Assembly: GCA_023301765.1 (NCBI GenBank)
Contig: JALZUC010000021.1
Location: 62,001-126,000 of the forward strand
Direction: 5' to 3'
DNA: 64,000 bases
Source of the DNA: Akkermansiaceae bacterium
GTDB taxonomy: Bacteria > Verrucomicrobiota > Verrucomicrobiia > Verrucomicrobiales > Akkermansiaceae
The notes below the pieces were generated by a model that saw only the letters and a program-made list of their open reading frames with translations, ran no database searches and was not told where the DNA came from. Positions 1,302 through 46,088 of this stretch are shown here, piece after piece. The position numbers were made by a program, and so were the translations under genes. Numbering within the stretch: the first letter of the stretch is position 1; the number at the start of each line of letters is the position of its first letter.

Positions 1302-1333
1302 CCCTCCTCCAGCGCAGGGCTCCCCAGCCTAGC

Positions 1334-1360
1334 TTGACAAATCCGATCATGTAATACACT
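1334..1360 (+). promoter_or_regulatory. Possible sigma-70 promoter of the toxin-antitoxin pair
   Basis: A perfect -35 hexamer TTGACA lies at 1334-1339. A TACACT hexamer lies at 1355-1360, with a spacing of only 15 bp. The antitoxin ATG is at 1369, so transcription would begin almost at the start codon and the message may be leaderless. No Shine-Dalgarno motif is visible before that ATG. The -10 match and spacing are imperfect, so this is a weak call. Confidence 0.35.
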
Positions 1361-1368
1361 GTTAAAAA

Positions 1369-1986: not shown

Positions 1987-1998
1987 CTAACCGTATCG

Positions 1999-2976: not shown

Positions 2977-2979
2977 AAA

Positions 2980-3567: not shown

Positions 3568-3663
3568 AGAGGCTGCCCCCCCTTTCTAGCGACTAGAACT
3601 TCACTCGCAAGCATTCATAATAACTCAGCGTATTTTTACCCCCCCCAATACATTAAGCAGTCT

Positions 3664-3676
3664 ATTTATGATAAAT
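3664..3676. promoter_or_regulatory. Short perfect inverted repeat in the pgsA-gnd divergent region
   Basis: ATTTAT and ATAAAT flank a single central G, a perfect 6-1-6 inverted repeat about 75 bp before the gnd ATG. It lies between two divergent genes and could be a regulator site. Its AT-rich composition makes a chance match plausible. No further promoter elements are convincing here. Confidence 0.2.
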
Positions 3677-3751
3677 GGGCGGCTCTGACGTAAGTTCCTA
3701 TTGATTGGGAGACTATAACGTGCTAGTTCCCCATGAACTCATTCAAAATCT

Positions 3752-5182: not shown

Positions 5183-5209
5183 CTCACTAATTATAATAAC
5201 TTAATACAG

Positions 5210-5240
5210 GGCGAAACAGTTTATCTGTTTCGCCTTTTTT
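5210..5240 (+). terminator. Rho-independent terminator after gnd
   Basis: GGCGAAACAG (5210-5219) pairs perfectly with CTGTTTCGCC (5225-5234) around a 5-nt loop, and a run of six T follows. The hairpin lies 28 bp downstream of the gnd stop and is a textbook intrinsic terminator. Confidence 0.93.
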
Positions 5241-5283
5241 CGGCCCCCATTATGATTATTTTAATTTTATCCAGTTTTTAATT

Positions 5284-5302
5284 GCTATTGAGACCCATTA
5301 TC
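5284..5302 (+). promoter_or_regulatory. Fur-box-like site upstream of siderophore receptor
   Basis: The 19 bases GCTATTGAGACCCATTATC match the classical Fur consensus GATAATGATAATCATTATC at 14 of 19 positions, counted by eye. The site lies 46 bp before the ATG of a siderophore-type TonB receptor, a sensible place for an iron-responsive operator. The Fur consensus of this phylum is not known to me, so the call rests on proximobacterial-type sites and on gene context. Confidence 0.5.
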
Positions 5303-5347
5303 AATAAGAAGCGCGTGCAGTTCATCATTATCGCTGCTTAACTAGTC

Positions 5348-7486: not shown

Positions 7487-7552
7487 TCACTTCATACATC
7501 ATAATCAGCAGCCCTAGGCTGCACAAAACAAACCCCAACGTCCGATCACAAG

Positions 7553-7589
7553 TAACCCCTTCGGAGAACGAACTTCGCCGAAGGGGTTA
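7553..7589. terminator. Inverted repeat between convergent genes, possible bidirectional terminator
   Basis: TAACCCCTTCGG (7553-7564) pairs perfectly with CCGAAGGGGTTA (7578-7589), with a 13-nt loop. A second repeat, TTAATGGT/ACCATTAA, overlaps its right edge at 7587-7609. The site sits between the ends of the TonB receptor and the oppositely oriented PIN-domain gene, where a terminator is expected. There is no clean T-run after the stem, so termination is inferred from position and stem strength. It also marks the left boundary of the AT-rich PIN gene. Confidence 0.45.
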
Positions 7590-7615
7590 ATGGTTAAAAT
7601 TACCATTAAATTAAC

Positions 7616-8839
7616 CTACTTTGTAGCGTCTGATGTTGACTGCTCTCTAAATATATCATTTTCGAACGGTTTATACTGAAGCCCTACATCTTGCTTAACT
7701 CTAAAAGCCTTCATCTTACTTGTTGCTCCTTCTGGATAGTCATCAAAAAATTCAATTACACCTTTTCTCTCTAGCTCTTCAATAACCTGATAAGATGTTT
7801 GGTAATCATAGTCACCATTACCTAAGTAATTTTGAACAAATGAGTGTAGCCACAAAACCTTTCCGTTTCTAGTAGCCCAATTCTCGCTACCTTTAATACG
7901 ATCAATCATTTCTTCTTCTGTAATCTTTCTAAATCCTTCAAACCTGGAGGGGTATTCAGTATGAATAGCACTACGATCCTCTGCTCTTATAGATTCAATC
8001 TCAGCTAAGACCTCATCACTGATTGTTTCATTTCGAGATTTGGCAGCGCGTTCAAGAAAGGAATCTACACTGTAGACCCAAAAATCCTCATTAGATTTCT
8101 GAATAAACTCCTCACGAAGTTCGGGTCTTGGCCCAATTGTTCTACCAGCTTCTTTTTGCCACCAGTCCTCTTTATTATCATCAGTTATAAAGATTAGTGA
8201 TTTTCTATTTTTTTTAGCATACTCAATTAATTCAAACCAAACTATGAGATCACCAAATTTTCTAGAAGAATCATGATCAGAATCTTTACTAGAATCTTTA
8301 TAACCTGGCGGAGTTTTATTCTCATAGCGTTGTTCACCATCTTTACAAATTTCAGCAATACGTTCATCTCCGAGGCTTTCACAAGTTTTACCTTCAAAAA
8401 GGTTCTCAATAAAAGCCAACCTTTTATCATCTACTAATCTATCTAATAATTCCTTATGCTCTTTATCGAGTTGCTCTTGAATAGAGTCGATGTGCTTATT
8501 GAGATCAGGTAATGATTCTTCAGAAATATACGGGTGTCGTTTTTTGTCAGACAAGCGATCAAGAATACTTTTTAAATCTTTTGAAGCAATTGTATATTCT
8601 TTTGCTTGAGATGAGGTGACCCCTAATCGGTTAGCTAAAAACTCTTTAGCAGCTTGATTAGTTATAAAAATTCTATCTGAAATCGTCGTTAACGCTTTTT
8701 CCAATTGTTCACGTGTATCCTGAGAATATCTATACAGGTTTAGAACAACATTAGCGTCTATGGAAAAAACAGCATTCTCCCATAAGTTTGATAAATCATC
8801 GTCTGTTGGTCTAAAGTGTGCTGCAAATATGTTTTTCAT
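7616..8839 (-). CDS. PIN-like domain protein (PIN_8/DUF4935 type), putative nuclease
   Basis: From the ATG at 8839 the protein has 407 residues. The N-terminal half resembles the PIN_8 (DUF4935) family of metal-dependent RNases. It shows FSIDANVVLNLYRYS with the first catalytic aspartate (about residue 28), a conserved glutamate in QAAKEFLANR, FGDLIVWFELIEYA, and LIFITDDNKEDWW with the late acidic residues. The middle (about 85-170) is charged and probably helical or coiled-coil. The C-terminal 100 residues may form a winged-helix-like domain. An upstream in-frame start at 8950 exists but would overlap the preceding gene. The DNA is visibly more AT-rich than both neighbours, which suggests transfer. 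Proteins of this type occur near defence genes, but no such partner is seen here, so a role in phage defence is only a guess. Confidence 0.75.
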   Translation of the reverse strand: MKNIFAAHFRPTDDDLSNLWENAVFSIDANVVLNLYRYSQDTREQLEKALTTISDRIFITNQAAKEFLANRLGVTSSQAKEYTIASKDLKSILDRLSDKKRHPYISEESLPDLNKHIDSIQEQLDKEHKELLDRLVDDKRLAFIENLFEGKTCESLGDERIAEICKDGEQRYENKTPPGYKDSSKDSDHDSSRKFGDLIVWFELIEYAKKNRKSLIFITDDNKEDWWQKEAGRTIGPRPELREEFIQKSNEDFWVYSVDSFLERAAKSRNETISDEVLAEIESIRAEDRSAIHTEYPSRFEGFRKITEEEMIDRIKGSENWATRNGKVLWLHSFVQNYLGNGDYDYQTSYQVIEELERKGVIEFFDDYPEGATSKMKAFRVKQDVGLQYKPFENDIFREQSTSDATK

Positions 8840-8909
8840 GTTATTTAAAAAGGTGACTATGTGTTCTACATAGTTGGGGTTTTTTATGAATAGATTACTA
8901 GAAAAACGG

Positions 8910-10007
8910 TTAATCGTTAATCGCATCAATAAACTTACGAAGTCTACCAAAGTTACGGCGGCGGTGACGGAACACCAGCCTCGGTAGATCTGCTAAGCGA
9001 GGCTCGTTTGCCTCCTCTGGCAGTGGATCACACTGCTCAAACTCACCGCTTTTAATAATATCTCCAAACTCCTCAGAGAGAGACTTCATCTTTTCATCAC
9101 TAAGCTTCTTTTTAAGCCTGATGACAAGACGATCTCCACAATAACGGTATGAGTGGAAGGTTGAGTAGAATTTCACTATCTCTGCTACAGCCTCATCTAC
9201 ATCGTCAGTAACCATGTAGAGATGGAAGTCATCATCAGAGATGAGCTTTAGTCTACTGAGATGCTCTACAATAAACTGCTGCCAGAATTTCCAATACTTT
9301 CCACCTTTGGCATCTATCAGCACTAGCGGGTAGATCGCCGCCTTACCTGTCTGAATGAGTGTTAGAGTTTCAAAAATCTCATCCATCGTGCCAAAGCCAC
9401 CTGGGAAAGCTGCCACAGCATCTGATTCCTTCACAAAGGAAAGTTTACGCGTAAAGAAGTAGTCGAAATCAATCAACTTCTCATCACCATTAATAAATGC
9501 GTTAGCTGAAGCTTCAAAAGGTAAGCTAATATCTAGGCCAAAGCTATGCTCACGGCCTGCGCCTTCATTACCGGCAGCCATGATACCTGGGCCTGCGCCT
9601 GTGATCGTCATAAAGCCAGCTTCACGCATTTTATCAGAGAACTCCACCGCAGCTTTATACTCAGGCTCTTCTGGATCTGTGCGGGCAGAGCCAAATACAC
9701 CCACCTTCTGCTGATGACGGTAAGGGTAGAATACCTCATTTGCTATGCGCATCTCCTTGAGCGAGCGATTCATGAGCTTGTAGTCCCCCTCAGTCACGGA
9801 ACCACGTGAGGTACGCACCGCGGTGATCATCATCTCAGCTAACATACAGTCTTGCTCGCCAGAAATCTCTGCTGCGAGCTTCATGATTTTATCATCAAGA
9901 GCCTTTTCGCCTGTAGAGCCTACAAAGGCACATGACTGGGAGTGAATCATTCCCCCTGTAAAATCTCTATCTTGCGGAATCTCTTTGTGTGGGTCTTTGG
10001 AACTCAT
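8910..10007 (-). CDS. LOG-family (lysine decarboxylase-like) nucleotide-binding protein
   Basis: This 365-residue protein belongs to the LOG/TIGR00730-related Rossmann-like family. Many members are nucleoside 5'-monophosphate phosphoribohydrolases, known in plants as cytokinin-activating enzymes. The sequence shows GVFGSART (103-110), TGAGPGIMAAGNEGA (136-150) and the signature FPGGFGTMDE (201-210), with the catalytic arginine and glutamate regions present. It is longer than the typical 180-220-residue LOG, with an N-terminal extension of about 95 residues and a C-terminal basic tail (HRRRNFGR). It is followed by the PIN-like gene on the same strand. The substrate is not deducible. Confidence 0.85.
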   Translation of the reverse strand: MSSKDPHKEIPQDRDFTGGMIHSQSCAFVGSTGEKALDDKIMKLAAEISGEQDCMLAEMMITAVRTSRGSVTEGDYKLMNRSLKEMRIANEVFYPYRHQQKVGVFGSARTDPEEPEYKAAVEFSDKMREAGFMTITGAGPGIMAAGNEGAGREHSFGLDISLPFEASANAFINGDEKLIDFDYFFTRKLSFVKESDAVAAFPGGFGTMDEIFETLTLIQTGKAAIYPLVLIDAKGGKYWKFWQQFIVEHLSRLKLISDDDFHLYMVTDDVDEAVAEIVKFYSTFHSYRYCGDRLVIRLKKKLSDEKMKSLSEEFGDIIKSGEFEQCDPLPEEANEPRLADLPRLVFRHRRRNFGRLRKFIDAIND

Positions 10008-10141
10008 AAATTAATTAATAGTTATAAAAATACGCTGTAGTTGAAATAATACACTACACATATATGAGGACTATGGCGCTGCAAATATTCAGTTTTTTTA
10101 GATCGCGCCTCTAACGGTTAGCGCTCTATCCACGCGTTTCT

Positions 10142-11197
10142 CTACGCGCTGATTTCTTGACTAATACTTTGCAGCTTCTGCAGGCGCTCATAGGCCTGAC
10201 CAGAATCGATCAGTTTGGTAGCCATAGTTACCCCCTGCCCGAGAGTCTCTGCTAGACCAGCACAGGCAAGCCCCGCTCCGGCATTAAGTAGCACCATCTC
10301 ACGTTTAGCCCCAGTCTCACGACCACTCAGAATATCCGTAAGGATACCTGCATTAACTACGGCGTCACCACCCTGAAGATCCTCTACAGCACATGGTGTA
10401 AAGCCAAAGTCCTCCGGCCTCACCTCTTCATTAACCAGGGCTTGTTGCCTACCTGATTTACAAATACGTGTCACACCTAGTAAACTTACCTCATCCACAG
10501 GGCGACCATCAGCAGTGGAGCCATTTACAACCCACGCGCGGTTACGATCAAGACGTTGTAGTATATCAGCGTAGGCTGAGTTTAGACCTGGATCACAGAC
10601 ACCCACTAGCTGACACTCAGGTCGTGCAGGATTTAAGAGCGGCCCTATGAGGTTAAAAATAGTCCTCACCCCCTCTTTAGCTAAAGCAGCACGCACAGGG
10701 GCGATCACTTTAAATGCTGGATGGTAGAGCTGCGCAAAAAGAAAACCAACGCCTGCATGCTCTAGACATTTACGAAAGTCCTCTGGTGAATGCGTAATAT
10801 TGATCCCCAGAGCTTCTAACACATCTGCACCGCCACTCTTAGAAGTGATACCACGGTTACCATGCTTCACCACTACAGCACCACCAGCCGCTATGACAAA
10901 CATGCTGGTAGTAGAGACATTAAATAGATCTAGCTTGTCCCCACCAGTGCCGCAAACATCAATGGTAGGCCCCTTAAGGTCCATTTTAGAAATACCGGGG
11001 TCTACGGCACGCTCCAGAAAAGCCTCTACAAAAAGTGCAATCTCAGCGGGAGTCTCTCCCTTCTTAGTCAGAGCCTTTAGGAAGCAGATCTTCTTCTTAT
11101 CACACACCTCAGTGCTAAGCAGCATCTCAGCTGCCACATCTATCTCGCGAGGCTTTAGCTCCTCAGCGTTTTCTACCTGTTGGATCAGTGCGTCCAT
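10142..11197 (-). CDS. trpD: Anthranilate phosphoribosyltransferase
   Basis: TrpD transfers the phosphoribosyl group of PRPP to anthranilate in tryptophan biosynthesis. Motifs are clear: CGTGGDKLDLFNVST for PRPP binding, KHGNRGITSKSGGADVLEALG for anthranilate and PRPP, and a late DEVSLLG. I place the start at the ATG at 11197, giving 351 residues. This matches the family N-terminus (MDALIQQVENAEELKPREI) and lies 8 bp after the stop of the preceding gene. In-frame ATGs at 11245 and 11281 would add 16 or 28 residues and overlap the acyltransferase gene. No other trp gene is adjacent, so the pathway is dispersed. Part of an apparent recQ-acyltransferase-trpD transcription unit. Confidence 0.95.
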   Translation of the reverse strand: MDALIQQVENAEELKPREIDVAAEMLLSTEVCDKKKICFLKALTKKGETPAEIALFVEAFLERAVDPGISKMDLKGPTIDVCGTGGDKLDLFNVSTTSMFVIAAGGAVVVKHGNRGITSKSGGADVLEALGINITHSPEDFRKCLEHAGVGFLFAQLYHPAFKVIAPVRAALAKEGVRTIFNLIGPLLNPARPECQLVGVCDPGLNSAYADILQRLDRNRAWVVNGSTADGRPVDEVSLLGVTRICKSGRQQALVNEEVRPEDFGFTPCAVEDLQGGDAVVNAGILTDILSGRETGAKREMVLLNAGAGLACAGLAETLGQGVTMATKLIDSGQAYERLQKLQSISQEISA

Positions 11198-26349: not shown

Positions 26350-27288
26350 ATGCAGCCTATCACATTTACCCCCCTATACATGGATCGCGTCTGGGGAGGT
26401 CGCGAACTGGAGAGGAAATACTCCCGCTCCCTACCATCTGCTGATACCCCCTATGGTGAATCTTGGGAAATGGTAGATCGGCCAGATGAGCAATCCGTAG
26501 TAACTCAGGGCTGCTATCAAGGACTTACTCTCGGCGAACTTTGGCGAGATAAACGTGCAGAGCTCTTTGGCCCAGGCTTCGATGCCGAGAGCAGCTTCCC
26601 TCTATTAATTAAAATTCTTGATGCCCGTGATGACCTCTCCATTCAGGTGCACCCGCCCGCAGCAATAGCCCCCGAGCTAGGTGGCGAGCCTAAGACTGAG
26701 ATGTGGTACATCGCAGATGCCGAGCCAGATGCTAAGCTATACGCCGGCATGAAAACAGGCACAACGAAGCAGGATTTCCATACAGCTATCGAAGACGGCA
26801 CGGTAGATCAAGTGGTCCACTCAATCTCACCTAAAGCTGGTGAGTCTATTTTTATCCCCTCTGGAAGATTACACGCTATAGGAGCCGGTCTCCTGATTTA
26901 TGAAATCCAGCAGAACTCAGACACTACCTACAGGGTGTTTGACTGGAACCGTATGGGACTAGATGGAAACCCTCGTGAGCTGCACGTAGCAGAGTCTATG
27001 CGCTGTATCGACTTCTCTTATACCGAGCCCACTATGGATACCCCACAGGGTAATACTCTAGCAAGCTGCCCCTATTTCCATGTAGATAAACTACAGCTCT
27101 CTGAAAATTCCAAGGTGCAGAACCCCGACCCTGAGAGATTTTCCATAGTCACGGTGGTAAAGGGCTCACTAGAATCATCTGATGGTGGGCAATACGGTGC
27201 TGGAGACTCACTACTTCTCCCCCGCGCAGCTGACCCACTAATCGCTAAAAACGATGCTACTATCCTTCAGACCACTATTCCTCGCTAG
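26350..27288 (+). CDS. manA: Mannose-6-phosphate isomerase (type I, short form)
   Basis: This cupin-fold zinc enzyme converts mannose-6-phosphate to fructose-6-phosphate for mannose use or nucleotide-sugar synthesis. With the start at 26350 it has 312 residues, the length of the Bacillus-type short ManA. Its N-terminus ITFTPLYMDRVWGGREL is diagnostic. Zinc ligands appear in IQVHPP and EPKTEMWY, with the later histidine in IPSGRLHAIGAG. Upstream in-frame starts at 26233 and 26314 would run into the divergent ABC gene. Its 3' end overlaps the next gene by 35 bp. Confidence 0.95.
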   Translation: MQPITFTPLYMDRVWGGRELERKYSRSLPSADTPYGESWEMVDRPDEQSVVTQGCYQGLTLGELWRDKRAELFGPGFDAESSFPLLIKILDARDDLSIQVHPPAAIAPELGGEPKTEMWYIADAEPDAKLYAGMKTGTTKQDFHTAIEDGTVDQVVHSISPKAGESIFIPSGRLHAIGAGLLIYEIQQNSDTTYRVFDWNRMGLDGNPRELHVAESMRCIDFSYTEPTMDTPQGNTLASCPYFHVDKLQLSENSKVQNPDPERFSIVTVVKGSLESSDGGQYGAGDSLLLPRAADPLIAKNDATILQTTIPR

Positions 27289-28303
27289 TAGAGTTAGATT
27301 ACTAGTCTACCTCCTTACAAGCCTTGGTCTGGCCCTTCAGCCTGAAATTAGCCGTGCAGAAGATGTTGGCAACTGGCCAACATCTTGGAAGCCTTCCGCT
27401 CAGGCCAAAATCATCGTCGCTCAAAAAGGTAACGGAAATAAACCCTACACCTACCACACTCAAAACTACGAGCTACACTCACTGACTGCGCTGAATACAC
27501 AGCAATTACAGGCCTTCGCTAATATTACCGAGTCCATTCCTCATGTATTAAAACGCTTACCCATGCCCTTATTAGGTATGCCAGAGGGGCGCCGTGCTAA
27601 GGTGCTCATCTATCCAGATGAAGATAGCTTTATCGCAGCTGGTGGAGTTCCCGGTGCTGCTGGGTATTATAACGGTAGGATGAAAGCTATTCTTCTCCGC
27701 GCAGACAGCTTCCTCACTCCAGCCTCTGGTCGGGGGAGTAGACTCCCACCTAAGGCTGACTACTCACTATTAGTTCATGAATTTACCCACCTCTGCATGC
27801 ACAATATTTTGGGCTACCTACCACCATGGTTTAGTGAGGGCACAGCAGAGTATATCACCGCAGCACACCAGAGTAAGGGCGTCTATCAATTCTCAAACCC
27901 AAGCAGCTCTATTCGAAAGCGCATTCGCAAGGCGCTCCCTAATGATAAGGATGAAATCATTCTGCCCAGCATCAGCGAAACTATGGCTCTAAGCCATAAG
28001 CAATGGGGTGAACGTATCAAAAAAGGTCAACCAAACGATCTCTACCGTAGCTATGCTACCTCCCTACTCATTGTCCACACCCTCTTTCATGGAGGAGAAA
28101 AGCGGCGTGAAGCCACCCGCACATTTCTGAAAACACAGCAACAACGGCCGCATCGTATGGATCAAGAGACGCGTATACTCTACCCACGCTGGGATGAAGC
28201 TCAAGCTATACTTATCTCCCCAGAAGAACGCAAAAAACTCCAACAGCGTATCATCGATTACTGGCGACCTCGTGGCTTACGTCTAAAATTCAACTTTGAG
28301 TGA
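27254..28303 (+). CDS. Secreted HExxH metallopeptidase-like protein (DUF1570-like)
   Basis: This 349-residue protein has an N-terminal hydrophobic signal (about 12-35) and a zinc-peptidase-like core of the MA clan. The core shows LLVHEFTHLCMH (HExxH) followed, 17 residues later, by PWFSEGTAEYI, whose glutamate would be the third ligand. This arrangement matches DUF1570-type proteins common in Planctomycetes and Verrucomicrobia. A gluzincin-like core is also present in the gene at 37984-39195. The start overlaps manA by 35 bp; no later ATG gives a signal peptide. The substrate is unknown. The C-terminal part after residue 270 is basic. Confidence 0.8.
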   Translation: MLLSFRPLFLASRVRLLVYLLTSLGLALQPEISRAEDVGNWPTSWKPSAQAKIIVAQKGNGNKPYTYHTQNYELHSLTALNTQQLQAFANITESIPHVLKRLPMPLLGMPEGRRAKVLIYPDEDSFIAAGGVPGAAGYYNGRMKAILLRADSFLTPASGRGSRLPPKADYSLLVHEFTHLCMHNILGYLPPWFSEGTAEYITAAHQSKGVYQFSNPSSSIRKRIRKALPNDKDEIILPSISETMALSHKQWGERIKKGQPNDLYRSYATSLLIVHTLFHGGEKRREATRTFLKTQQQRPHRMDQETRILYPRWDEAQAILISPEERKKLQQRIIDYWRPRGLRLKFNFE

Positions 28304-28379: not shown

Positions 28380-28916
28380 CTATCGTTTGGCCGGAAGCAA
28401 ACTACCATTACCAGCCTCTGCATCAGGTAAATTACTCGGTATAGACGTAGAGAGACCTCGCGGCCGAGCACTATCTACACGGAGAGGGCGGAAGTCCGAG
28501 CTATGAGAATCAACACGGAATGTTAATTCATCCATATCACGATTTGTCTCTGAGAGCTGCTTACGTAAGTGTTTCTGCTCCGCACGCATGGCCGCTAGCA
28601 TCTTTGTCTGCTCTGCAAGAAGTTTTAAAAGAGCATCTTCACGAGGGGTTTGTGCCGCACCTATAGCTGCTGGATGAGTGGGAGGAGTTTCTTTTTTCTT
28701 AATAACCGGCACTTGTGGTGTAGGAATAGCTTTAATGCTGTCTTTGTGCGTGGATTGATTATGCGCAGCAGTCTCCGTAGCATTCATCACACTGGAAGAA
28801 GTCACTGCTCCATTGCGAACCATTTCCTGCACCTTAAGATAGTGCATGCCTGCAATACCGGTGATGATACTCAGCATAACAGTAGCTAAAAGAGGTATGG
28901 CGATATTATTTTTCAT
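28380..28916 (-). CDS. Membrane-anchored coiled-coil protein, last gene of pseudopilin operon
   Basis: I do not recognise this 178-residue protein. From the ATG at 28916 it has one N-terminal membrane helix (about 5-23), then a serine/threonine- and proline-rich linker. A predicted coiled coil (KLLAEQTKMLAAMRAEQKHL and onwards, about 95-135) follows, and the basic C-terminal tail ends in LLPAKR. The topology suggests a periplasmic coiled coil held by the inner membrane, as in secretion-system or pilus assembly adaptors. It starts 4 bp after the stop of the preceding operon gene. An upstream in-frame ATG at 28985 would overlap that gene. Confidence 0.7.
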   Translation of the reverse strand: MKNNIAIPLLATVMLSIITGIAGMHYLKVQEMVRNGAVTSSSVMNATETAAHNQSTHKDSIKAIPTPQVPVIKKKETPPTHPAAIGAAQTPREDALLKLLAEQTKMLAAMRAEQKHLRKQLSETNRDMDELTFRVDSHSSDFRPLRVDSARPRGLSTSIPSNLPDAEAGNGSLLPAKR

Positions 28917-28920
28917 GGTC

Positions 28921-29547
28921 TTATCTCGGTAGGGATGAAAGTAGCTGCTGCAAACGCTGGATAACTTCAGCTGCCTGCTTCTCATGATTCTCTATCTCAG
29001 CAGTAGAGTTTTGCAACATAACACCCAGCGTTACGTTTTTAGAGAATTTTAAATAGTCTTTATAGCCTGGCTCAGCAATCTTAATCACATTCTTACCATC
29101 TTCAATGGGAACTAACACGTAAGGAGTAATCGATAAATCCGCGATGTAGCCGCTATCTAGCTTTACCTGTTTACGGAACGGCTCAGAGTCCGATGGTCCA
29201 GGGACAAACCTCCACCCTGCAGGAGGCACAGATATTGGCTTCGCTGGCCATGGTGAGTCTATTTTCACTTTTCCTTTACCGGTGACACCACCTGACTCTC
29301 CCACTGTTTTTTCAATTTGAATTTGAATACCCTCGTTTTCTTTTTTGTCGCCACCTTTATCTGAAGGCTTAGCGGGGGCTTTATCTTCAGCAGCTTGGTC
29401 TTGTTTAGACCATTCATCGATCACCGTAGCCGGGGGTAACTCTAGCAAAGACGCATGTTCTAAACCTGAAGGCTCAGGATCAGTGAGTGTCTGCGCCTGA
29501 GCTGTTACTACAGCTAGTGATAATAAAATATAAACTCTAAATCTCAT
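28921..29547 (-). CDS. Secreted protein of pseudopilin operon, function unknown
   Basis: From the ATG at 29547 the protein has 208 residues with a signal peptide MRFRVYILLSLAVVTAQAQ. A charged, low-complexity linker rich in D, K and E (about 45-80) separates it from a folded C-terminal part. That part contains PPAGWRFVPGPSD and a predicted beta-rich stretch. The last 35 residues look helical. The PAG-W-R-F phrase resembles LPAGYRYIGKY in the second gene of this operon (30362-30871), which may mean that the two share a small domain. The gap to the upstream gene is 22 bp. No known family is recognised. Confidence 0.7.
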   Translation of the reverse strand: MRFRVYILLSLAVVTAQAQTLTDPEPSGLEHASLLELPPATVIDEWSKQDQAAEDKAPAKPSDKGGDKKENEGIQIQIEKTVGESGGVTGKGKVKIDSPWPAKPISVPPAGWRFVPGPSDSEPFRKQVKLDSGYIADLSITPYVLVPIEDGKNVIKIAEPGYKDYLKFSKNVTLGVMLQNSTAEIENHEKQAAEVIQRLQQLLSSLPR

Positions 29548-29569
29548 GGTGTTAAACTGATATGAGGGA

Positions 29570-30355
29570 TTACTCAGCAGCGGGTTTCCCATCATCTACT
29601 TTAATTAATGAGGAACCATCCGGGAGGTCTCTTGGTTGATTTCCGTGACCTTGATTATAGGGTAAAGATGGACTGTCTGCTCTTAACACAGTAGCTGGTG
29701 CCGTGCGCCCTAATAAAAGATTCCAGTCATTTAATACCCCCTTACCTTGCTGTCTGAGGTTATTAAGATCACGCTCATAAATCATTAATCGTGATAAAAT
29801 ATTACGGGCTTCAGCTATATCCTCTTTCGTCCAGCGCATCGTACGGGTCTCATAACGCACTGGAACATCAAGAATGATTTTTTGTTCACCATTCTCAGTC
29901 ATCGCACGGAGAATATGCTGTACTTTGAGATTGGTATTCTCCCAGCGCACTCCTGGCTTTACTCCAGCAGGTAGTTTTCCTGACTTGGCTGACGCCGCTG
30001 TGCGATTCCCTGATGGTGTCTCACCAGGCAACGCATCTTCTGATGGGACAAGATCAGATTCAACTGAGGCCTCTTTACCCAGCTTCACACCAGTAACTTC
30101 AGTTACGTCTTTTTCCACAGTTAGAAGTGAGGCGGCTGGCTGCTGTGGAGGAGTAGATACGATCACAGGCTTAGTGATATACATCCAACAAAGTGCTCCT
30201 GATAAACATACAATAGCACCAAGAAGCAAAGGATAAGCCTTACTCATGGGAGTATTAGCAGCAGGATTTGACAATGGCTGATTGAGAGGGGCGTGTTCTA
30301 CGTTTTGCGCAGAACTAACTGGCTCCGTAGGAATTGGCTCAAGGGGAGATTTCAT
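29570..30355 (-). CDS. Single-pass membrane protein of pseudopilin operon
   Basis: This 261-residue protein has a proline-rich cytoplasmic N-terminus of about 38 residues, one membrane helix (about 39-60, KAYPLLLGAIVCLSGALCW) and a periplasmic remainder. The periplasmic part holds a linker, a central globular segment with GVRWENTNLKVQHILRAM (about 140-170) and a helical region with MIYERDLNNLRQQGKG. Bitopic proteins with this topology act as inner-membrane scaffolds in pilus and type II secretion machines, for example PilN/PilO or GspM/GspC. No sequence motif proves that here. It lies 6 bp after the preceding gene. Confidence 0.7.
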   Translation of the reverse strand: MKSPLEPIPTEPVSSAQNVEHAPLNQPLSNPAANTPMSKAYPLLLGAIVCLSGALCWMYITKPVIVSTPPQQPAASLLTVEKDVTEVTGVKLGKEASVESDLVPSEDALPGETPSGNRTAASAKSGKLPAGVKPGVRWENTNLKVQHILRAMTENGEQKIILDVPVRYETRTMRWTKEDIAEARNILSRLMIYERDLNNLRQQGKGVLNDWNLLLGRTAPATVLRADSPSLPYNQGHGNQPRDLPDGSSLIKVDDGKPAAE

Positions 30356-30361
30356 GATGAT

Positions 30362-30871
30362 TTATTGATCAACAGTTTCCGGTTTATGATCTGCCCCTAA
30401 GCTCACGGCACGGGTAATAATAACTCGGTGAGATCTAGGAGGAGTCTTAACCATCGTAAGGCTATTACGGGTAACACTTATTTGGCGGAGCATTTGCGCC
30501 TTTGTGCTGTATGCCTGCACTCCTGCAATAAGTTCTATCCCTCTATCAGAATTTGCCACTCCCACTCCATCCGAGCGGTAGATTTGGTATGCCGTATAAT
30601 TATCCTCACCAGCTGTCTTGCAGTAGACACGCACCTCTATCCCGTCACTGAAAACTCTATAAATTAAGGGTGATATTATCACCGCCTGGGAAGCTCCATT
30701 TTCAACACGCACTTTCGACTTTAGCTGATATTTACCTATATAACGATACCCGGCCGGCAGATTTCCAGGCTGATCTTGCGCATTAGCTGGGCACATCATT
30801 ACCCCTTGCACGCAAAGCATACAAATTACCAATAAGACTCTGGAGTTTATCTTTTTAAGATAGTTTTTCAT
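30362..30871 (-). CDS. Secreted protein of pseudopilin operon, function unknown
   Basis: With the ATG at 30871 the protein has 169 residues. It has a signal peptide (about 1-32) ending in CPANAQ and a mature part beginning with LPAGYRYIGKYQLKSKVRV. The rest looks beta-rich with several tyrosines and ends in a charged tail. It starts 11 bp after the stop of the pseudopilin gene; an upstream in-frame start at 30901 would overlap that gene. I cannot assign a family. It is probably periplasmic or exported with the pseudopilin. Confidence 0.7.
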   Translation of the reverse strand: MKNYLKKINSRVLLVICMLCVQGVMMCPANAQDQPGNLPAGYRYIGKYQLKSKVRVENGASQAVIISPLIYRVFSDGIEVRVYCKTAGEDNYTAYQIYRSDGVGVANSDRGIELIAGVQAYSTKAQMLRQISVTRNSLTMVKTPPRSHRVIITRAVSLGADHKPETVDQ

Positions 30872-30882
30872 ATTGCTGCAAT

Positions 30883-31305
30883 CTAGCCGCCTAAATCCCA
30901 TACCCCATCAGTAGCAGAACCAGAGGGGTCATATACAGCGCCAGCGCCATTACCAATAACAGGAGGAGATACATTGATTTGAATATTGTAATCAACACCG
31001 TCTAAGCCTCTTACTGTTGGTAAAGCTACGCTATCATCAGATAAATAAGGAATTATTTTAGCTGGTGTCAGGCTCGATACAGCCTCCACAGGATGCTCAC
31101 TAAGATATGTGCGTTGAGCATTGTAGACCATTCTTAATTTTTGAGTAGCCTCAGAACTTAATTGCCAATCACGATATCCAGAAACTCCATACACAGAAAC
31201 TCCTATGAGGGTGATAAGAACAACTATCACAACCGTAATTTCAATCAGCGTCATGCCACGCTTGAGTGACTTACACTCACTGTTAATTAATCTAAATATT
31301 GTCAT
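30883..31305 (-). CDS. Orphan type IV/type II pseudopilin
   Basis: This 140-residue protein starts the five-gene operon. A short basic leader ends in SLKRG and is followed by MTLIEITVVIVVLITLIG, a class III prepilin signal with glycine at -1 (G17) and glutamate at +5 (E22). Methionine replaces the usual phenylalanine at +1. A hydrophobic helix of about 20 residues leads into a small globular head with a glycine-rich C-terminus. A prepilin peptidase elsewhere in the genome would be needed to process it. No pilus ATPase, platform protein or secretin lies within this window. An upstream in-frame ATG at 31329 is an alternative start. Confidence 0.85.
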   Translation of the reverse strand: MTIFRLINSECKSLKRGMTLIEITVVIVVLITLIGVSVYGVSGYRDWQLSSEATQKLRMVYNAQRTYLSEHPVEAVSSLTPAKIIPYLSDDSVALPTVRGLDGVDYNIQINVSPPVIGNGAGAVYDPSGSATDGVWDLGG

Positions 31306-31563
31306 TCTACGCAAATGATAGCATATCATAGAGTATTGAAAATAAAAAAAGATAGCTATAATGAAGGACTTTCGCCTCCGAAACTAGGATCAAATATAGC
31401 CCTCCTTGCATTCAGTTGATCAAGTAATATGTTTTATAATTAACAAAACATTCCATTAACAGCCCCTCACGCCTCGGGCTCCTGATCAGACATACTCAAA
31501 TATATGACGATAGGTAGAACTTCGCCCTTGCAAGAAGATGGTTCCATCCTATATCCAGCTGAT

Positions 31564-35183: not shown

Positions 35184-35909
35184 ATGAAGTCTCTACTGAT
35201 TCTGTTCATCACAGCCATTACCCTACCCGCTCAGGTTCCGCAAAGTAGCACACAAGCTATTGTAGGTGTTACTAGTGGTTGGAACTCCTCTTATGTAACA
35301 CTCCACCTCTACGAGAAAAAGGGCCCGACATGGCAGCTAGTAGGCACTCCATGGAAAGGCAGACTTGGAAAAAACGGGCTCGCATGGGGGCGCGGCCTTC
35401 ACCCACAGATATCATCCAGCACAGTCAAAAAGGAAGGTGATAAACGCGCGCCAGCAGGCATTTTCAAAATAGGTAATGCTTATGGCTACGCCCCTCAGAT
35501 TCAAAAAAACACTCACCTCTCATACCACCAAATCACAGCAAAAGACCTCTGGGTAGAGGACACCAAGTCACCGTACTACAATAAACATCTCCTCCTACCT
35601 CATACCCCAAAGACAACTTGGGAAAAACAAGCACAAATGAGACAGGGTGACTACGCCCACGCGCTGAAACTCTACATCGCACACAATGACGCCATCATGG
35701 GGGGCAAGCCTATCCCCGGACTAGGTTCTGCTATCTTCTTTCACATCTGGCGCAACGGTGGGAGCAAATCCACTGCGGGCTGTACCACCATGGAAAAAGA
35801 AAAACTCAGCCACATGATCTCCCTCATTGACCCTAAAAAGCAGCCTGTCTACATCCTCTTACCACAGAGTGAATATGTTAGACTTCGCAGTAACTGGCAG
35901 CTACCCTAA
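35184..35909 (+). CDS. Secreted L,D-transpeptidase (YkuD-type)
   Basis: The 241-residue protein has a short signal (MKSLLILFITAITLPAQ) and a YkuD-type catalytic region. The catalytic motif is HIWRNGGSKSTAGC (H187 to C200), which provides the histidine, the glycine-serine pair and the nucleophilic cysteine. Such enzymes cross-link peptidoglycan or attach proteins to it in the periplasm; some relatives are carboxypeptidases or amidase-like. The protein lacks an LysM or other binding domain. Its end overlaps, on another frame, the upstream extension of the next gene, but the chosen start of that gene lies 20 bp later. Confidence 0.88.
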   Translation: MKSLLILFITAITLPAQVPQSSTQAIVGVTSGWNSSYVTLHLYEKKGPTWQLVGTPWKGRLGKNGLAWGRGLHPQISSSTVKKEGDKRAPAGIFKIGNAYGYAPQIQKNTHLSYHQITAKDLWVEDTKSPYYNKHLLLPHTPKTTWEKQAQMRQGDYAHALKLYIAHNDAIMGGKPIPGLGSAIFFHIWRNGGSKSTAGCTTMEKEKLSHMISLIDPKKQPVYILLPQSEYVRLRSNWQLP

Positions 35910-40380: not shown

Positions 40381-41220
40381 ATGAACGATACACCACTAGC
40401 AGAAACACCCAAACAAAACACCTCACCACCGCCATACAAAAGCCCCCTTTACAAGGACCCAGACTACTTACCCATTGAGGAAGCCGGTTTTTCACAAATA
40501 CTGAATCATCTACTAAAAAAACCACTTAGTGTAATTTACGAGATCAATCATGGCGAACGTAATCCTCTCTTAGCACTGCTGGCTATAACTTTAGTCTGCC
40601 TGAGTATCTTTGGCTTTGTATTAGGCATGTTTAGCGCTGGGGCTCAGCTCTGGGCGGCTCCCGCAAAGGTTGTGGGAGGGGTTCTCTTTAGCGGAGTTAT
40701 ATGTCTACCAAGCTTGTATATCTTTGGGGCATTAGGGGGCATGCAGGCTAAGATCCAGCAGATCATCGGCCTGATGCTTACATTTCTCTCTATTACAGCC
40801 TTACTCTTAGTAGGCTTTGCGCCAATTCTGTGGCTATTTTCTACATCAAGTAACTCCCTGGTATTCTTTGGGTTCCTCAGTATAGGCATATGGCTCATTT
40901 GCCTGATCTTTGGGCTTAGAGTCATCACCCGTGCCAGTAAAAGTATGGGCAGAGCTAAAGGCGGCCACCTCCATCTCTGGGCAATAATCTACATGTTAGT
41001 CACCGTCCAAATGACTACCACACTACGCCCTATTATTGGAGAATATGATCAGTTCATCAATCTTACTGAAAAGAAATTCTTTCTTGTCCACTGGGGTGAA
41101 ACACTTACCGGTAAAAACACCTCTGACCCACCAGTTAAAAAAAGTGATACACAAAAAAAGCCCCACAGCCATAGTGGCCAAAGCTCAGATGACGATACTA
41201 ACCCTTATCTTGATGAGTAA
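40381..41220 (+). CDS. Polytopic membrane protein, second of a tandem related pair
   Basis: This 279-residue protein has an N-terminal soluble segment of about 60 residues (Pro-rich, then AGFSQILNHLLKKPLSVIYEI), five or so membrane helices and a hydrophilic, histidine- and aspartate-rich tail. The helical part parallels the preceding gene: LLALLAITLVCLSIFGFVLG, LPSLYIFGALGG and YMLVTVQMTTTLRPIIG. It begins 13 bp after the first gene and so is co-transcribed. No function is assigned. The pair might form a heteromeric membrane complex. Confidence 0.72.
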   Translation: MNDTPLAETPKQNTSPPPYKSPLYKDPDYLPIEEAGFSQILNHLLKKPLSVIYEINHGERNPLLALLAITLVCLSIFGFVLGMFSAGAQLWAAPAKVVGGVLFSGVICLPSLYIFGALGGMQAKIQQIIGLMLTFLSITALLLVGFAPILWLFSTSSNSLVFFGFLSIGIWLICLIFGLRVITRASKSMGRAKGGHLHLWAIIYMLVTVQMTTTLRPIIGEYDQFINLTEKKFFLVHWGETLTGKNTSDPPVKKSDTQKKPHSHSGQSSDDDTNPYLDE

Positions 41221-41227
41221 CGTATTA

Positions 41228-42013
41228 CTAATCATTTAAAAAGCCTGTGAGTGGGCTAGTGGCCGATGCATGATCTACTACATCTGGTAAGCCCATCTCA
41301 TAAGCAGCTCGGCCGGACTCAACACCTAACTTAAACGCCTCGCCCATACGAACAGGGTCAGAGGCAATAGCCATAGCTGTATTTACCAGCACCGCATCAG
41401 CTCCTAACTCCATAGCCTCGGCAGCATGACTGGGAGCTCCAAGACCAGCGTCCACTACCACCGGCACGATAGCTTGATCCACAATGATACGAATTTGGTC
41501 ACGGGTAACCACCCCTTTATTAGACCCGATAGGTGCCCCCAGAGGCATGACTGCTGCAGTTCCCACTTCTTGTAAACGCTTAGCCAGCACTGGATCTGCA
41601 TTTATATATGGCAGGACAGTAAAGCCTTCTTTCACAAGAATCTCTGCTGCTTTGAGAGTTTCGATAGGGTCTGGTAATAGGTAAGTAGGGTCTGGGTGAA
41701 TCTCCAGCTTTACCCACTTAGGAAGCCCCGCAGTGACAGCTAATCTCGCTAGCCGCACCGCCTCATCCGCATCCATTGCTCCACTGGTATTTGGTAGCAA
41801 TAAATATTTCTCAGAGTCGATAAACTTAAGAATATCTGCCTGAGGGTCATTGCTCCCAGTCAGATCCGCCCGCCTTAACGCCACAGTTACTATCTCTGTT
41901 CCTGATGATGCCAAGGTCTGGGCCATAAGTTCGCCAGAGGCGAATTTCCCCGTACCTGCCATTAGTCTGGAGGAAAATTTACGATCAGCGATCTTTAGCG
42001 ATTGGTTCTTCAT
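41228..42013 (-). CDS. thiG: Thiazole synthase
   Basis: ThiG makes the thiazole phosphate moiety of thiamine from 1-deoxyxylulose 5-phosphate, a glycine- or tyrosine-derived imine and sulfur from ThiS thiocarboxylate. The 261-residue protein begins [19 protein letters not shown]. It contains the catalytic lysine in [18 protein letters not shown] and the phosphate-binding GAPIGSNKG and [21 protein letters not shown] split over two loops. No thiS, thiF, thiH or thiO genes lie next to it. I saw no TPP riboswitch in the 400 bp upstream. It converges on the membrane pair with 7 bp between them. Confidence 0.96.
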
Positions 42014-42413
42014 CTGGCTTTAGATTAGCGTGCTACTCCAGTCATGCAAGTGCAAGGAATGAACAAATTACGGCTTCATTGACCGATCTGAAGATCGCGC
42101 GCGCGCTGAATCTATGAACCTCGATCACACTTTATTTTAGCGCCAGCTGATAAATACCCATGGGTTTCCACTTCAGAGTGCTTACGCAAGCGTCTCTCTC
42201 ATGATAGCTTTAGTCACAATTATCAGTTCTATTATGTTCAGACATAGTGAAGCCTAACAAATTAGCCAACAGCTATTTGAACGATTCAAGGAGCATTCCC
42301 GTATAATTTCAGCCTCATCGAAATATCTTAAATTCCACTCTAAAAAAAACCAAGACGTCTCAACTTTTTCAGTTCACAAAGTTCTTTGAGCATAAAGAGA
42401 GTCAGCAGCTTAA
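42014..42413. other. Non-coding region of 400 bp
   Basis: The region holds the thiG promoter side. Its notable features are an inverted repeat CGATCTGAAGATCG (42084-42097) directly joined to an alternating CG tract (42096-42106), unusual in this AT-rich sequence. No coding frame, tRNA or TPP-riboswitch core was identified. Confidence 0.45.
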
Positions 42414-43469
42414 TTAATCTTCCGGTGCCTGCTCGCGTTGATTACTCGGTGAGCCATCTTTATTATGAAAGGCGACAACTGCACCTATACCAGCTGCATG
42501 ATCAGCTCCCAGCCGCCTCGGCATCTCTAGCACAGGCAAATAATACCTCTGCTTTTTTTTCCAAAACATAATAACACACACCATCCCAGCTATAGTAAAA
42601 AAAAGTCCTACTACGCCTACCGTTATATATTGAAAATAAGGTTTGAAGCCAGCCTTACCCTTCTCCACGGGCTTCTCTTTAGGGTCTTGAGCTGCACTTC
42701 TTTCACCTTGATCATTAGTCGCTTTATTTTGGATAGGCTCCTCGGAAGCGGCTGCTATCATATCCTGCTCCATCCAGTAGAGGTTAATGGAGAGCTGTAG
42801 TGCATATGCTGCCACCTGATCCGCACGCTCAGATTTTTCCATCGCTTTCAACATGGCGCTTTCATTAGCACGGCTTTTCCCAAAAGTTTTCAGCCCTATG
42901 AGCCCCTGACCACCAAAAGCAAGCAGGCTACGGCTGGGGTCCCCCATAAAATAAAAAACTACGGCTGTAAGCTTAGACTCAGCATAAAACTCCCGGGCAA
43001 ATCTAGCCACGCTATATCTATATGGTATATCTTGTTCAGTATCAAAAATGTATAGCCGTATATCTATATCTGATTCACCAGCATAATAGTTAAGAAACTG
43101 CTCGCTCGCCTGCGCCTCCTTACGCGTCAAAAGCTGTTGAGGGTCTACTAAATAGCCACTTGGAAACTGCTTAAAATATTGATCAAGAAACTCCTCAGGA
43201 ATAAACTCAGGCGTGAAAAATGGTGCATATTTTTTATTACCTAATGATAGCGACTTTAAGTCTATCAGTGGATAAAGGTTTGTATCACCCGGAAATGATC
43301 CTCTGAGTAATATGGATCCGGCCTTGATTTCTCCATTTTTCAAACGTGTTCTATCTGAGTCTGACCACTCAGGGAGATTCTCAGCATAGACATACTGATA
43401 GCTAGTCAAACAGATAAGGGCTAACCATACTGCTGAAACACTGGGTGCTATGGACAATGTCTTTTTCAT
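42414..43469 (-). CDS. Membrane-anchored TPM-domain-like protein
   Basis: The 351-residue protein has a signal peptide (about 1-29, ...YQYVYAE), an extracytoplasmic domain and one membrane helix near 275-298, then a basic cytoplasmic tail. Within the outer domain, GYLVDPQQLLTRKEAQASEQFL and DIDIRLYIFDTEQDI recall the start of TPM (TPM_phosphatase) domains. The following YRYSVARFAREFYAES and FYFMGDPSRSLLAFG complete the pattern. Family members include modulators and a plant phosphatase, but bacterial roles are mostly unknown. Its ATG overlaps the stop of the upstream TPM gene in an ATGA, so the pair is translationally coupled. Confidence 0.65.
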   Translation of the reverse strand: MKKTLSIAPSVSAVWLALICLTSYQYVYAENLPEWSDSDRTRLKNGEIKAGSILLRGSFPGDTNLYPLIDLKSLSLGNKKYAPFFTPEFIPEEFLDQYFKQFPSGYLVDPQQLLTRKEAQASEQFLNYYAGESDIDIRLYIFDTEQDIPYRYSVARFAREFYAESKLTAVVFYFMGDPSRSLLAFGGQGLIGLKTFGKSRANESAMLKAMEKSERADQVAAYALQLSINLYWMEQDMIAAASEEPIQNKATNDQGERSAAQDPKEKPVEKGKAGFKPYFQYITVGVVGLFFTIAGMVCVIMFWKKKQRYYLPVLEMPRRLGADHAAGIGAVVAFHNKDGSPSNQREQAPED

Positions 43470-44098
43470 TCTACCTGGCTGTGAGGTTGCTCCATCGTCT
43501 GCGGTGAAGTTAAATCTCCCTGCTCGTCCTTCCCTGCTCGTCCATGATATTTCTTTGGATTTCGTTTTACTTGTTTTGAGCTCTTTACCAGCGCTGCGGA
43601 AACCTTAGTGATAACTATCTTTAAAGCTTTGTAATAATTCCCCTGTAATAGATGAGGGTGCGCTTTTGATAGAGCATTAAAGGTATCTTCCTCTTTAAGG
43701 TAAATATCAAGTAGGTAACCATTAGCAATAAATGCGGATTTCCCGTTTACATCCACGACTAGAAGAATGCCTCCATCATTGGACCTTGTCAGATCTACAT
43801 CCTTAAAGTTACTCCGGTTAAGTAACCACATACCATACTGGCGAATATGAGAACAATCATCAAGAGACCCGAAGTAGACACTAAAAAATAGCTGCGGGAA
43901 ATTATCCTCAAAATTATGCAGCCACCTCTCCACATTTCTACGCTCCTTCATACGTAGCACCCCGGCCACATCACTTAATTTAAGCATGCTCACTGCATCT
44001 GCGCCATACAGGTCGTCCAGATCAGATGTCGCAAAGCCACAGTGAGGGCACTGCGGCGCACTGCGATGAATACGCTGGACGCATCTTGGACACTTCAT
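43466..44098 (-). CDS. Zinc-ribbon plus TPM-domain protein
   Basis: The 210-residue protein starts with a zinc ribbon, MKCPRCVQRIHRSAPQCPHCGF (CxxC...CxxC, residues 3-20). It is followed by a TPM-like domain with NVERWLHNFEDNFPQLFFSVYFG and SNDGGILLVVDVNGKSAFIANGYLLDIYL. It has no signal peptide and is probably cytoplasmic or membrane-associated through its neighbour. The last 40 residues are charged and disordered. It overlaps the next gene by 4 bp. Confidence 0.75.
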   Translation of the reverse strand: MKCPRCVQRIHRSAPQCPHCGFATSDLDDLYGADAVSMLKLSDVAGVLRMKERRNVERWLHNFEDNFPQLFFSVYFGSLDDCSHIRQYGMWLLNRSNFKDVDLTRSNDGGILLVVDVNGKSAFIANGYLLDIYLKEEDTFNALSKAHPHLLQGNYYKALKIVITKVSAALVKSSKQVKRNPKKYHGRAGKDEQGDLTSPQTMEQPHSQVE

Positions 44099-44202
44099 CT
44101 CGTAACTAAAATACTGTATCCACCATATTTTCCAAGTCCTGTTATCAATGGATTGTAAAAAATAAAAAACTTAATGCTCATTAACCTAGACTCTTTAATC
44201 TC

Positions 44203-44862
44203 CTAGTTTCTCCCCAATAGTGCTAACATGCGCCCCGTACTGCCTTTTTGCTGCCTATAACTATAGTAGCAGCTCAAGTCAGAAGTCGTACATATGCCTG
44301 AATCTGTATACTGATTCTCTGGAACTCCGGCCTCGATTACCTGCTCACGTATTTGACCCGCAAAGTCCACCTCATACGCTGGTGGGCGAATACATGGTGC
44401 TAGCACCACTCGCAGGTCACTGGGCTGGCTACCATATTCCTCCTGCATCATTGCTACTGCTTTTCCAGTAATATTACCATCAGTGCCTTTTTTCCCAGAA
44501 TGTAGCAGCGCCAGCGCATTCTGCACAGGGTCTAGGATGTAGACGGCACCGCAGTCAGCGACATACATACCTAATAAAATCCCCTTATCTCTGGTAATCA
44601 ACCCATCTACCTCTGGCCACGTCTGTGCTGATTCACCTTTTTCTATAAAGGTAATATCCGTTCCGTGGGTTTGCTCAGCACGGTGCAGCTGCCCCCATGA
44701 AAAACCCAGCTTGGTAACTGCATTTTCATGTGCCGGCTGAAGTCTATTTACCGTAGCTACCCTATCCGTATCTACGGAAACCCCATCTATCTTGCCCACG
44801 AAGTCCGCACACACACCAGGTAACTGGTTCATTTTTTCTAAATAAAAAGGCGTTTGCGTCAT
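44203..44862 (-). CDS. pgeF: Multicopper-polyphenol-oxidase-like purine nucleoside phosphorylase (YfiH/PgeF family)
   Basis: The 219-residue protein is of the YfiH/PgeF family, which includes purine nucleoside phosphorylases and a peptidoglycan-editing factor. The expected zinc and active-site segments are present as QTHGTDI, MYVADCGAVYI and VVLAPCIRPPAYEV. The segment normally reading HAGWRG here reads HSGKKG, which may be a lineage variant. The protein is slightly shorter than usual. It lies about 100 bp downstream of a MarR-type regulator on the same strand, with no other partner. Confidence 0.82.
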   Translation of the reverse strand: MTQTPFYLEKMNQLPGVCADFVGKIDGVSVDTDRVATVNRLQPAHENAVTKLGFSWGQLHRAEQTHGTDITFIEKGESAQTWPEVDGLITRDKGILLGMYVADCGAVYILDPVQNALALLHSGKKGTDGNITGKAVAMMQEEYGSQPSDLRVVLAPCIRPPAYEVDFAGQIREQVIEAGVPENQYTDSGICTTSDLSCYYSYRQQKGSTGRMLALLGRN

Positions 44863-44963
44863 AGAGCTAAGTCATCAACGGAAGTACACTTCATTTCCAA
44901 ACCTCTGCTGAGGCCTTAAAAAATCTTTATTATCTGCGAGCCTCCTTAGAGTCACGATCTATA

Positions 44964-45407
44964 CTAACCCCGCCCCTGAAGAGCGCGGTTTGCGTGATCC
45001 ACAGTATCAGCTTCTTCTTCATCCATTTCAGACATAACGTCTGATAAATTTGATGCAATTTCGCTACGCATACGTGCTACTAGCTCAGTTCCCTTTTGAG
45101 TGATACGAACCATGATCTTACGGCGATCTTCCGCAGCGTGTACACGTTCAACATAGCTCAGCTTTTCAAGACGGTCCACAAGACCTGTTGCTGCAGCAGT
45201 AGAATGCCCCATCTTCTTAGCGATGTCTGACATAGTCAGATACTCTTCACTAGAAAGGTAAGCTAGTAGGAAGAACTGAGGAAATGAGATGTTACCACGG
45301 TTCAGTTCGCTAGATAGATTTAGAATGCAAGAGCGTTGAGTGAACAACACAAAATCTGCGAGGCGGTCGGTATCGACTTGGCTAGAAATGGTAGGGCTAG
45401 TTTTCAT
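44964..45407 (-). CDS. MarR-family transcriptional regulator
   Basis: The 147-residue protein has the MarR winged-helix fold. Helices run to SFPQFFLLAYLSSEEYLTMSDIAKKMG, with the recognition helix in HSTAAATGLVDRLEKLSYVER and the wing AEDRRKIMVRIT. These dimers usually respond to small ligands and repress nearby genes and themselves. A perfect inverted repeat, ACATTAG/CTAATGT, sits 13-40 bp upstream of its ATG and is the likely operator. What it controls is not clear from the neighbours, pgeF and a lipoprotein gene. Confidence 0.93.
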   Translation of the reverse strand: MKTSPTISSQVDTDRLADFVLFTQRSCILNLSSELNRGNISFPQFFLLAYLSSEEYLTMSDIAKKMGHSTAAATGLVDRLEKLSYVERVHAAEDRRKIMVRITQKGTELVARMRSEIASNLSDVMSEMDEEEADTVDHANRALQGRG

Positions 45408-45419
45408 TTTAGTTAATGC

Positions 45420-45447
45420 ACATTAGCTGTTTAATTGCAACTAATGT
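45420..45447. promoter_or_regulatory. Candidate MarR operator (inverted repeat)
   Basis: ACATTAG (45420-45426) and CTAATGT (45441-45447) form a perfect 7-bp inverted repeat. Their centres are 21 bp apart, two helical turns, as suits a dimeric winged-helix regulator. The outer flanks continue the symmetry with one mismatch. It lies just upstream of the MarR gene start and so would give autorepression. Confidence 0.5.
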
Positions 45448-45578
45448 TCACGTAGTGAGAAATTTAAAATACATAAAACAAAACGCGCCCGCAAGAGTTA
45501 TTTTTAAATAAACACCGGGAAACGGCATGAAATATTGTATATTTTTTATATAAATCATAGCTACCCTACTAGCTATTA

Positions 45579-46088
45579 CTATAGCTCGCTTGCCCTTACT
45601 TTGGGGGGAGCTATTAGTGTAGTAGGGCTAGTCACAGGGAACACTGGTGCTGGTAGGGACTCTTCTACTACTGGCTCAGGCACAGTAGCTTGAGGCGCTT
45701 TAAGTGCAGCATTGATCTCTTCATCCACAAAAGGAGTCTTAGACGCCTCCTTAATAATCGTGCGGATATATACACCATCCCCCACCTCTACACTGCCTTC
45801 ACGGATATCTGCTGCCACGTGCTCCCCTAGTTTTTCACCTGTTGGCATGAGGCTAGCCGAACGCCCGTCACCACGGCTTTCCACTATCTGCCCCTCCGCC
45901 ACTCTCCAGGGACCATATCGGCGAATGAGTACAAACCGAGCGCTTTCATTCACAGACTGCACCCTTCCAGAAAGTCTTATATTAGAATTATTACCAAGAG
46001 CTATTGGCTTTTTTTTAAAAAAACTACATGCCGGTAACAGAAGAATCACTAGAAAAATCGGGCAAACGAGGCGAGGCATCTTACTCAT
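45579..46088 (-). CDS. Putative lipoprotein of unknown function
   Basis: The 169-residue protein has a lipoprotein signal with lipobox LLPAC and cysteine at residue 21. The mature part begins with SFFKKKPIALG and a segment GRVQSVNESARFVLIRRYG, which looks like a small beta-barrel fold. It ends in a proline-rich tail. The family is not recognised. It is transcribed from the strand opposite to hemH, 60 bp downstream of queD. Confidence 0.75.
   Translation of the reverse strand: MSKMPRLVCPIFLVILLLPACSFFKKKPIALGNNSNIRLSGRVQSVNESARFVLIRRYGPWRVAEGQIVESRGDGRSASLMPTGEKLGEHVAADIREGSVEVGDGVYIRTIIKEASKTPFVDEEINAALKAPQATVPEPVVEESLPAPVFPVTSPTTLIAPPKVRASEL

Follow-up and report, generated by a model that had tools for sequence, protein, structure and literature searches.

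A five-gene envelope operon in an Akkermansiaceae genome as the probable relocated module of a distinct Verrucomicrobiales type IV filament machine

Five envelope genes in a compact operon

Five minus-strand open reading frames, all intact, occupy positions 28380-31305 of the window (the whole 64,000-nucleotide stretch of Akkermansiaceae DNA that was analysed), with the same ends as in a sequence-only reading of this DNA. We call them g1 to g5; the gaps between them measure 11, 6, 22 and 4 bp. For each of them, tens of genomes yield orthologues that share conserved motifs, and we therefore regard all five as real genes. A promoter scan at the operon returned fewer matches than in shuffled sequence.

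The first gene of the module, g1 (30883..31305, minus strand), encodes a class III prepilin or pseudopilin of 140 aa, recognised from its reading frame and its RG↓MTLIE signal. The full motif, K-R-G17↓M18-T-L-I-E22 with glutamate at +5 and a hydrophobic segment behind it, bears out the prepilin assignment made earlier. Its score against TIGR02532 is just above the cut-off (16.9 against 16.3 bits), and weak matches to the N_methyl, PilA and GspG models are confined to the N-terminus. With the GspG model TIGR01710 it scores 20.6 bits for a cut-off of 88.85, the N-terminus alone matching, so that g1 does not qualify as a GspG; with TIGR02596 (Verru_Chthon cassette protein D) it scores 13.5 bits for a cut-off of 70.

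The second and fourth genes encode exported proteins, and their N-termini, read by eye, carry the Sec-type signal sequences proposed for them (...ANA↓Q in g2, ...AQA↓Q in g4). The product of g2 (30362..30871, minus strand; reading frame and AF2 model) has 169 aa and a single all-beta domain at residues 43-157, modelled with a pLDDT of 87. Its structural matches in the PDB are calycin-type or fatty-acid-binding-type barrels at Z of at most 8.8 with many ties, a level that the search tool's own note treats as a common arrangement, and we rejected the resemblance as a sign of homology. No type IV filament component is among the listed g2 matches. The product of g4 (28921..29547, minus strand; reading frame and alignment) has 208 aa; P-GW, EPGY and, at the C-terminus, LLSSLP are its conserved motifs (alignment A7), and it scores 16.5 bits against the PEGA domain, below the cut-off of 20.8. 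The PAG-[YW]-R-[YF] phrase that had been noticed in both g2 and g4 is indeed common to them. The internal duplication suggested from it is unproven, since the g2-versus-g4 profile comparison is ambiguous, giving an E value of 0.0013 with one alignment and 0.12 with another.

A single N-terminal membrane helix, as claimed from the letters, is found in g3 and g5 by hydropathy, and in g3 by AF2 as well. The product of g3 (29570..30355, minus strand; reading frame, alignments and AF2) is a 261-aa inner-membrane-anchored protein, presumably with a cytoplasmic N-terminus, whose helix falls at about residues 40-60 by hydropathy and at 36-60 by AF2. The AF2 model, of low overall confidence, adds a hairpin at 138-169 and a helix at 177-218. 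Structural matching of the g3 fold was set aside, the matches not being meaningful at this model confidence. Neither the g2 model nor the g3 model points to a function. The motifs E-TN-QH...VPV-Y...RW...LRADSPSLP are conserved in g3 (alignments A1, A2, A6). The product of g5 (28380..28916, minus strand; reading frame and hydropathy) has 178 aa, with its membrane helix at residues 5-25, weak coiled-coil-like Pfam matches at residues ~95-140 and a conserved NRD..EL.FRVDTHS.SFRPL motif. The description of g2-g5 as unassigned holds, as none of the four reaches threshold with any Pfam or NCBIfam family. PDB sequence profiles for g2, g3 and g4 likewise gave nothing at threshold.

In the operon flanks examined there is no ATPase, platform protein or secretin, in agreement with the first reading. 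Beyond g1 lies the interval of the cluster's break (31306..31503), which ends at a ribH-like gene on the plus strand, starting at 31504; at this point, upstream of g1, relatives with a joined cluster carry GspE, GspF and a protein of about 140 aa that we call C140. At the other end, an exported 349-aa protein with a HEFTH zinc-protease-like motif and without a Pfam family is encoded convergently with g5 (27254-28303, plus strand). A YkuD-type L,D-transpeptidase-like protein is encoded at 35184-35909 (plus strand), and a relative of it, 52% identical, lies two genes past g5 in one related locus (L049, 10281-11006), possibly by chance. A DUF3108 protein immediately follows g5 in two relatives (L049 9468-10268, L136 13700-14539).

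The operon adjoins a conserved core cluster in relatives

The order g1-g5 recurs in related genomes, which answers the proposed gene-order check. Reading of the DNA around these loci places the five genes directly downstream, on the same strand, of a large conserved cluster. Its order is PilT-like ATPase, second pilin, GspL-like, GspM-like, PilP/GspC-like, secretin, a ~200-aa protein, GspE/PilB, GspF/PilC and C140, followed by g1-g5. The operon is thus the 3′ half of one conserved cluster, and the label of an orphan pseudopilin that had been given to g1 does not stand.

The assembly ATPase (PF00437) and the polytopic platform protein (PF00482) were identified in the orthologues of a joined relative (G012), and the genome of the window has its own copies on another contig, C48. 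The PilT-like protein also belongs to PF00437, has an intact Walker A motif (GPTGSGKS) and a predicted role in retraction, and is present in every core locus where that part was read. For the secretin and for GspE/GspF, pilus and type II secretion system (T2SS) models score about equally. The GspL-like protein has about 590-600 aa and a lone membrane helix at about residue 390, the GspM-like protein has ~180 aa, and the PilP/GspC-like protein is exported and has ~190 aa. Sequence profiles reached no known family for these three, so the labels GspL, GspM and PilP/GspC reflect position and topology only: in Pfam the positional equivalents of GspC, GspL and GspM are without a match, their topology being compatible, and the GspL-like profile matched no PDB sequence. 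Nor did Pfam give a match to PilM, PilN, PilO or PilP among the core proteins.

An ABC-type ATPase, a permease and a ~300-aa protein often precede the PilT-like gene (L074 9746-12242, with equivalents in L076-L081, L120-L123 and L137), a linkage to the core that is stable across the order. In several genomes of the same genus, g5 has, directly beside it or close by, a convergent set: minor pilins together with a 650-680-aa protein whose N-terminus resembles that of a pilin. The window's contig (C21) has a counterpart of this set at 41,132-45,648 (L133 5133-9649), beyond the window and ~45 kb away from the operon. It comprises two prepilin-like proteins and one of 676 aa whose N-terminus is again pilin-like.

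A split cluster in this and other genomes

The genome of the window carries the core on C48 (positions 1-10671), where it begins with a PilT-like gene truncated at the contig start and runs as far as C140. Its GspE and the GspE of the joined relative G012 share 91% identity, and the secretin (PF00263) is on the same contig. The single prepilin peptidase found (PF01478) is on contig C52 and is possibly shared with other systems. The C48 core stops after C140, exactly where g1 would be expected, and the next gene encodes what we take to be a 4-alpha-glucanotransferase-like protein. Because the core ends at this point, we read the five genes of the window as the 3′ part that this cluster lacks.

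The same break is found elsewhere. Among the 62 family genomes with both halves, the halves are linked (same contig, within about 10 kb) in 48 and separated in five (G000, G025, G035, G098, G121), and the remaining nine are undecidable from coordinates owing to fragmentation. G025 has the same junction as the window's genome and keeps all five genes although split. G035 is broken at the same place, between C140 and g1, with a different neighbour. In G098, a single-contig genome, the core and g1-g5 lie ~3 Mb apart, and the break again falls exactly between C140 and g1. The separation in G121 is less certain than in the other four, as it rests on core genes missing beside its module. The junction has been broken in at least three lineages.

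Distribution and build-up of the cluster

Of 145 genomes belonging to the same family (Akkermansiaceae), 61 have relatives of g3 and 66 have g2 orthologues. A scan of named genomes gave 37 loci, all in Verrucomicrobia and, where named further, in Luteolibacter, Haloferula, Rubritalea, Roseibacillus or Akkermansiaceae MAGs. Presence of g2 closely follows that of the GspL-like core protein: across the 145 genomes both occur in 62 and neither in 77, with g2 only in four (G060, G077, G089, G134) and the core only in two (G029, G136) (Fisher p 2e-33, uncorrected for shared ancestry). Across 240 genomes of the order, the core is present in 88 and g2 in 31, all 31 with the core, and in a phylum sample of 387 genomes the core was seen in Verrucomicrobiales only. 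In one Akkermansiaceae genus (labelled g3 in our sample, not the gene g3; genomes of 2.2-3.5 Mb), neither g2 nor the GspL-like protein was found in the genomes listed.

The g1 family closes every core locus read in Verrucomicrobiales, with orthologues after C140 in families f1, f2, f4 and f6. What lies 3′ of the core differs among these loci: g1 alone in f2 and f4, g1 and g2 in f6, and g1-g5 in f1 (Akkermansiaceae), so that g2 occurs in two families and g3-g5 in Akkermansiaceae only. In the Roseibacillus loci g4 was not found. On the simplest reading, g1 is an old pilin partner of the core and g2-g5 are later additions. Across most of the order the core and g1 occur without g2-g5, so these four genes are not essential to the basic machine.

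Identity, proposed mechanism and alternatives

Taken together, g1-g5 are very probably the relocated 3′ module, a pseudopilin and four accessory envelope proteins, of a distinct Verrucomicrobiales type IV filament machine whose core lies on C48. The class III signal, the ATPase and platform, and the secretin and prepilin peptidase place the machine in the type IV filament superfamily. It is a separate system, since the genome also holds a canonical T2SS and two Amuc_1098-type secretins. The T2SS is on the window's contig at ~29.9-38.0 kb (L134 3889-10499 plus L133 1-2004), beyond the window and some 52-60 kb away from the operon, with GspG above cut-off and matches to GspD, GspH, GspI, GspJ and GspK. 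Amuc_1098-family secretins exceed the NF042912 cut-off on C44 and C51, and the C48 secretin scores 45 bits in its best stretch against that cut-off of 750. Elsewhere in the genome, three prepilin-like genes lie side by side on C58 at ~34.6 kb (L003) and may form a Verru_Chthon-type cassette; one more prepilin-like gene is on C4 at ~10 kb (L004).

In the machine as we picture it, the C52 prepilin peptidase would cleave the pilins, g1 included; GspE and GspF would polymerise them into a filament operating through the C48 secretin, and the PilT-like ATPase could withdraw that filament. The five genes stay together when the cluster breaks, which is why we read them as a sub-assembly. The inner-membrane-anchored g3 and g5 and the periplasmic g2 and g4 might surround the filament in the periplasm as a collar or regulator, at the level between platform and secretin; we propose this role only tentatively. 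A bolder version makes g2-g5 a previously undescribed sub-complex in which g2 would be a periplasmic calycin-like ligand-binding barrel that lets the filament load, or sense, a ligand of hydrophobic or glycan type, and relocation at a fixed junction would reflect a regulated, swappable function; this we consider unlikely.

What the filament does can be read in two ways from the gene content. The presence of a PilT-like ATPase, together with a separate T2SS in the genome, leads us to lean slightly towards a retractile pilus. A second protein-secretion system, with a T2SS-like pseudopilus acting as a piston, would keep the module as assigned and is a serious possibility that we think somewhat improbable. 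The fused GspL-like protein, the GspM-like protein, the secretin and the linked minor pilin set with its large 650-680-aa member would all suit secretion. The PilT-like ATPase in the conserved core, wherever that part was read, and the T2SS already present speak against it, and the near-equal scores of the secretin and GspE/GspF with pilus and T2SS models lend it no support.

Other readings would detach the operon from the C48 core. The sequence-only reading was right that the operon is pilin-type machinery working with a core encoded elsewhere in the genome; its further proposal, an autonomous accessory pseudopilus or secreted complex borrowing the core machine of an unrelated system, has become very unlikely now that its own core is seen on C48. 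At least four genomes have the module apart from the core, and it moves as a unit, which would fit borrowing; but as a rule the module directly adjoins one specific core, the two co-occur almost without exception, and g1 belongs to that core locus across the order. Service to the T2SS at C21:29.9-38.0 kb, suggested by the shared contig, the 52-60 kb distance and that cluster's GspD, G, H, I, J and K, is more improbable still: the pseudopilin set of this T2SS is already complete, and the neighbour of the module in relatives is the C48-type core and not the C21 T2SS. Least probable of all is that the window copy is a decaying remnant of rearrangement. It is separated from its core and its promoter match is no better than chance; against decay, none of the five frames is interrupted, the motifs are conserved, the proteins resemble those of joined relatives, the C48 core is intact, and G025 retains all five genes after the same split.

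The assignment of a relocated module to the C48 core ties five otherwise unannotated verrucomicrobial envelope proteins to a specific machine. It also sketches a type IV filament system seen so far, among the samples searched, only in Verrucomicrobiales. The repeated break at one junction, with the five-gene module left intact, is a natural test of machine modularity. If the genus labelled g3 is Akkermansia, as is probable, the failure to detect the machine there would mark a difference between free-living and gut lineages.

Comparison with known systems

The machine shares with T2SS (GspC-M) a secretin, a GspE ATPase, a GspF platform, pseudopilins and the topology of GspL and GspM. It differs in that it has a PilT-like ATPase, that g1 and the second pilin both fail the GspG model, and that the GspL, M and C families are not recognised; to our knowledge, T2SS lack PilT. 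With type IVa pili (PilB/C/Q/T, PilMNOP) it has in common the ATPase, platform, secretin, PilT-like ATPase and pilins. Unlike them, it has no recognisable PilM, N, O or P and a GspL-like membrane protein instead, and it adds C140, the ~200-aa protein and g2-g5.

Among verrucomicrobial systems, the Verru_Chthon cassette (TIGR02596 and related) likewise comprises prepilin-type proteins, whereas g1 is far below its cut-off. The Akkermansia-type pilus with an Amuc_1098-family secretin (PMC4960237) is also verrucomicrobial envelope filament machinery with a secretin, but the secretin here is a different one, of ~600 aa and far below the NF042912 cut-off. No description of the locus was found in the titles and abstracts retrieved on verrucomicrobial GspE/PilT or pseudopilins. 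Denise et al. 2019 (PMC6668835) do not mention Verrucomicrobia in their main text, and we found no description of the g1-g5 accessory module there. The machine resembles the 'generic' type IV filament systems of that study, having an ATPase, a platform, a pilin and a secretin that fit no one type clearly.
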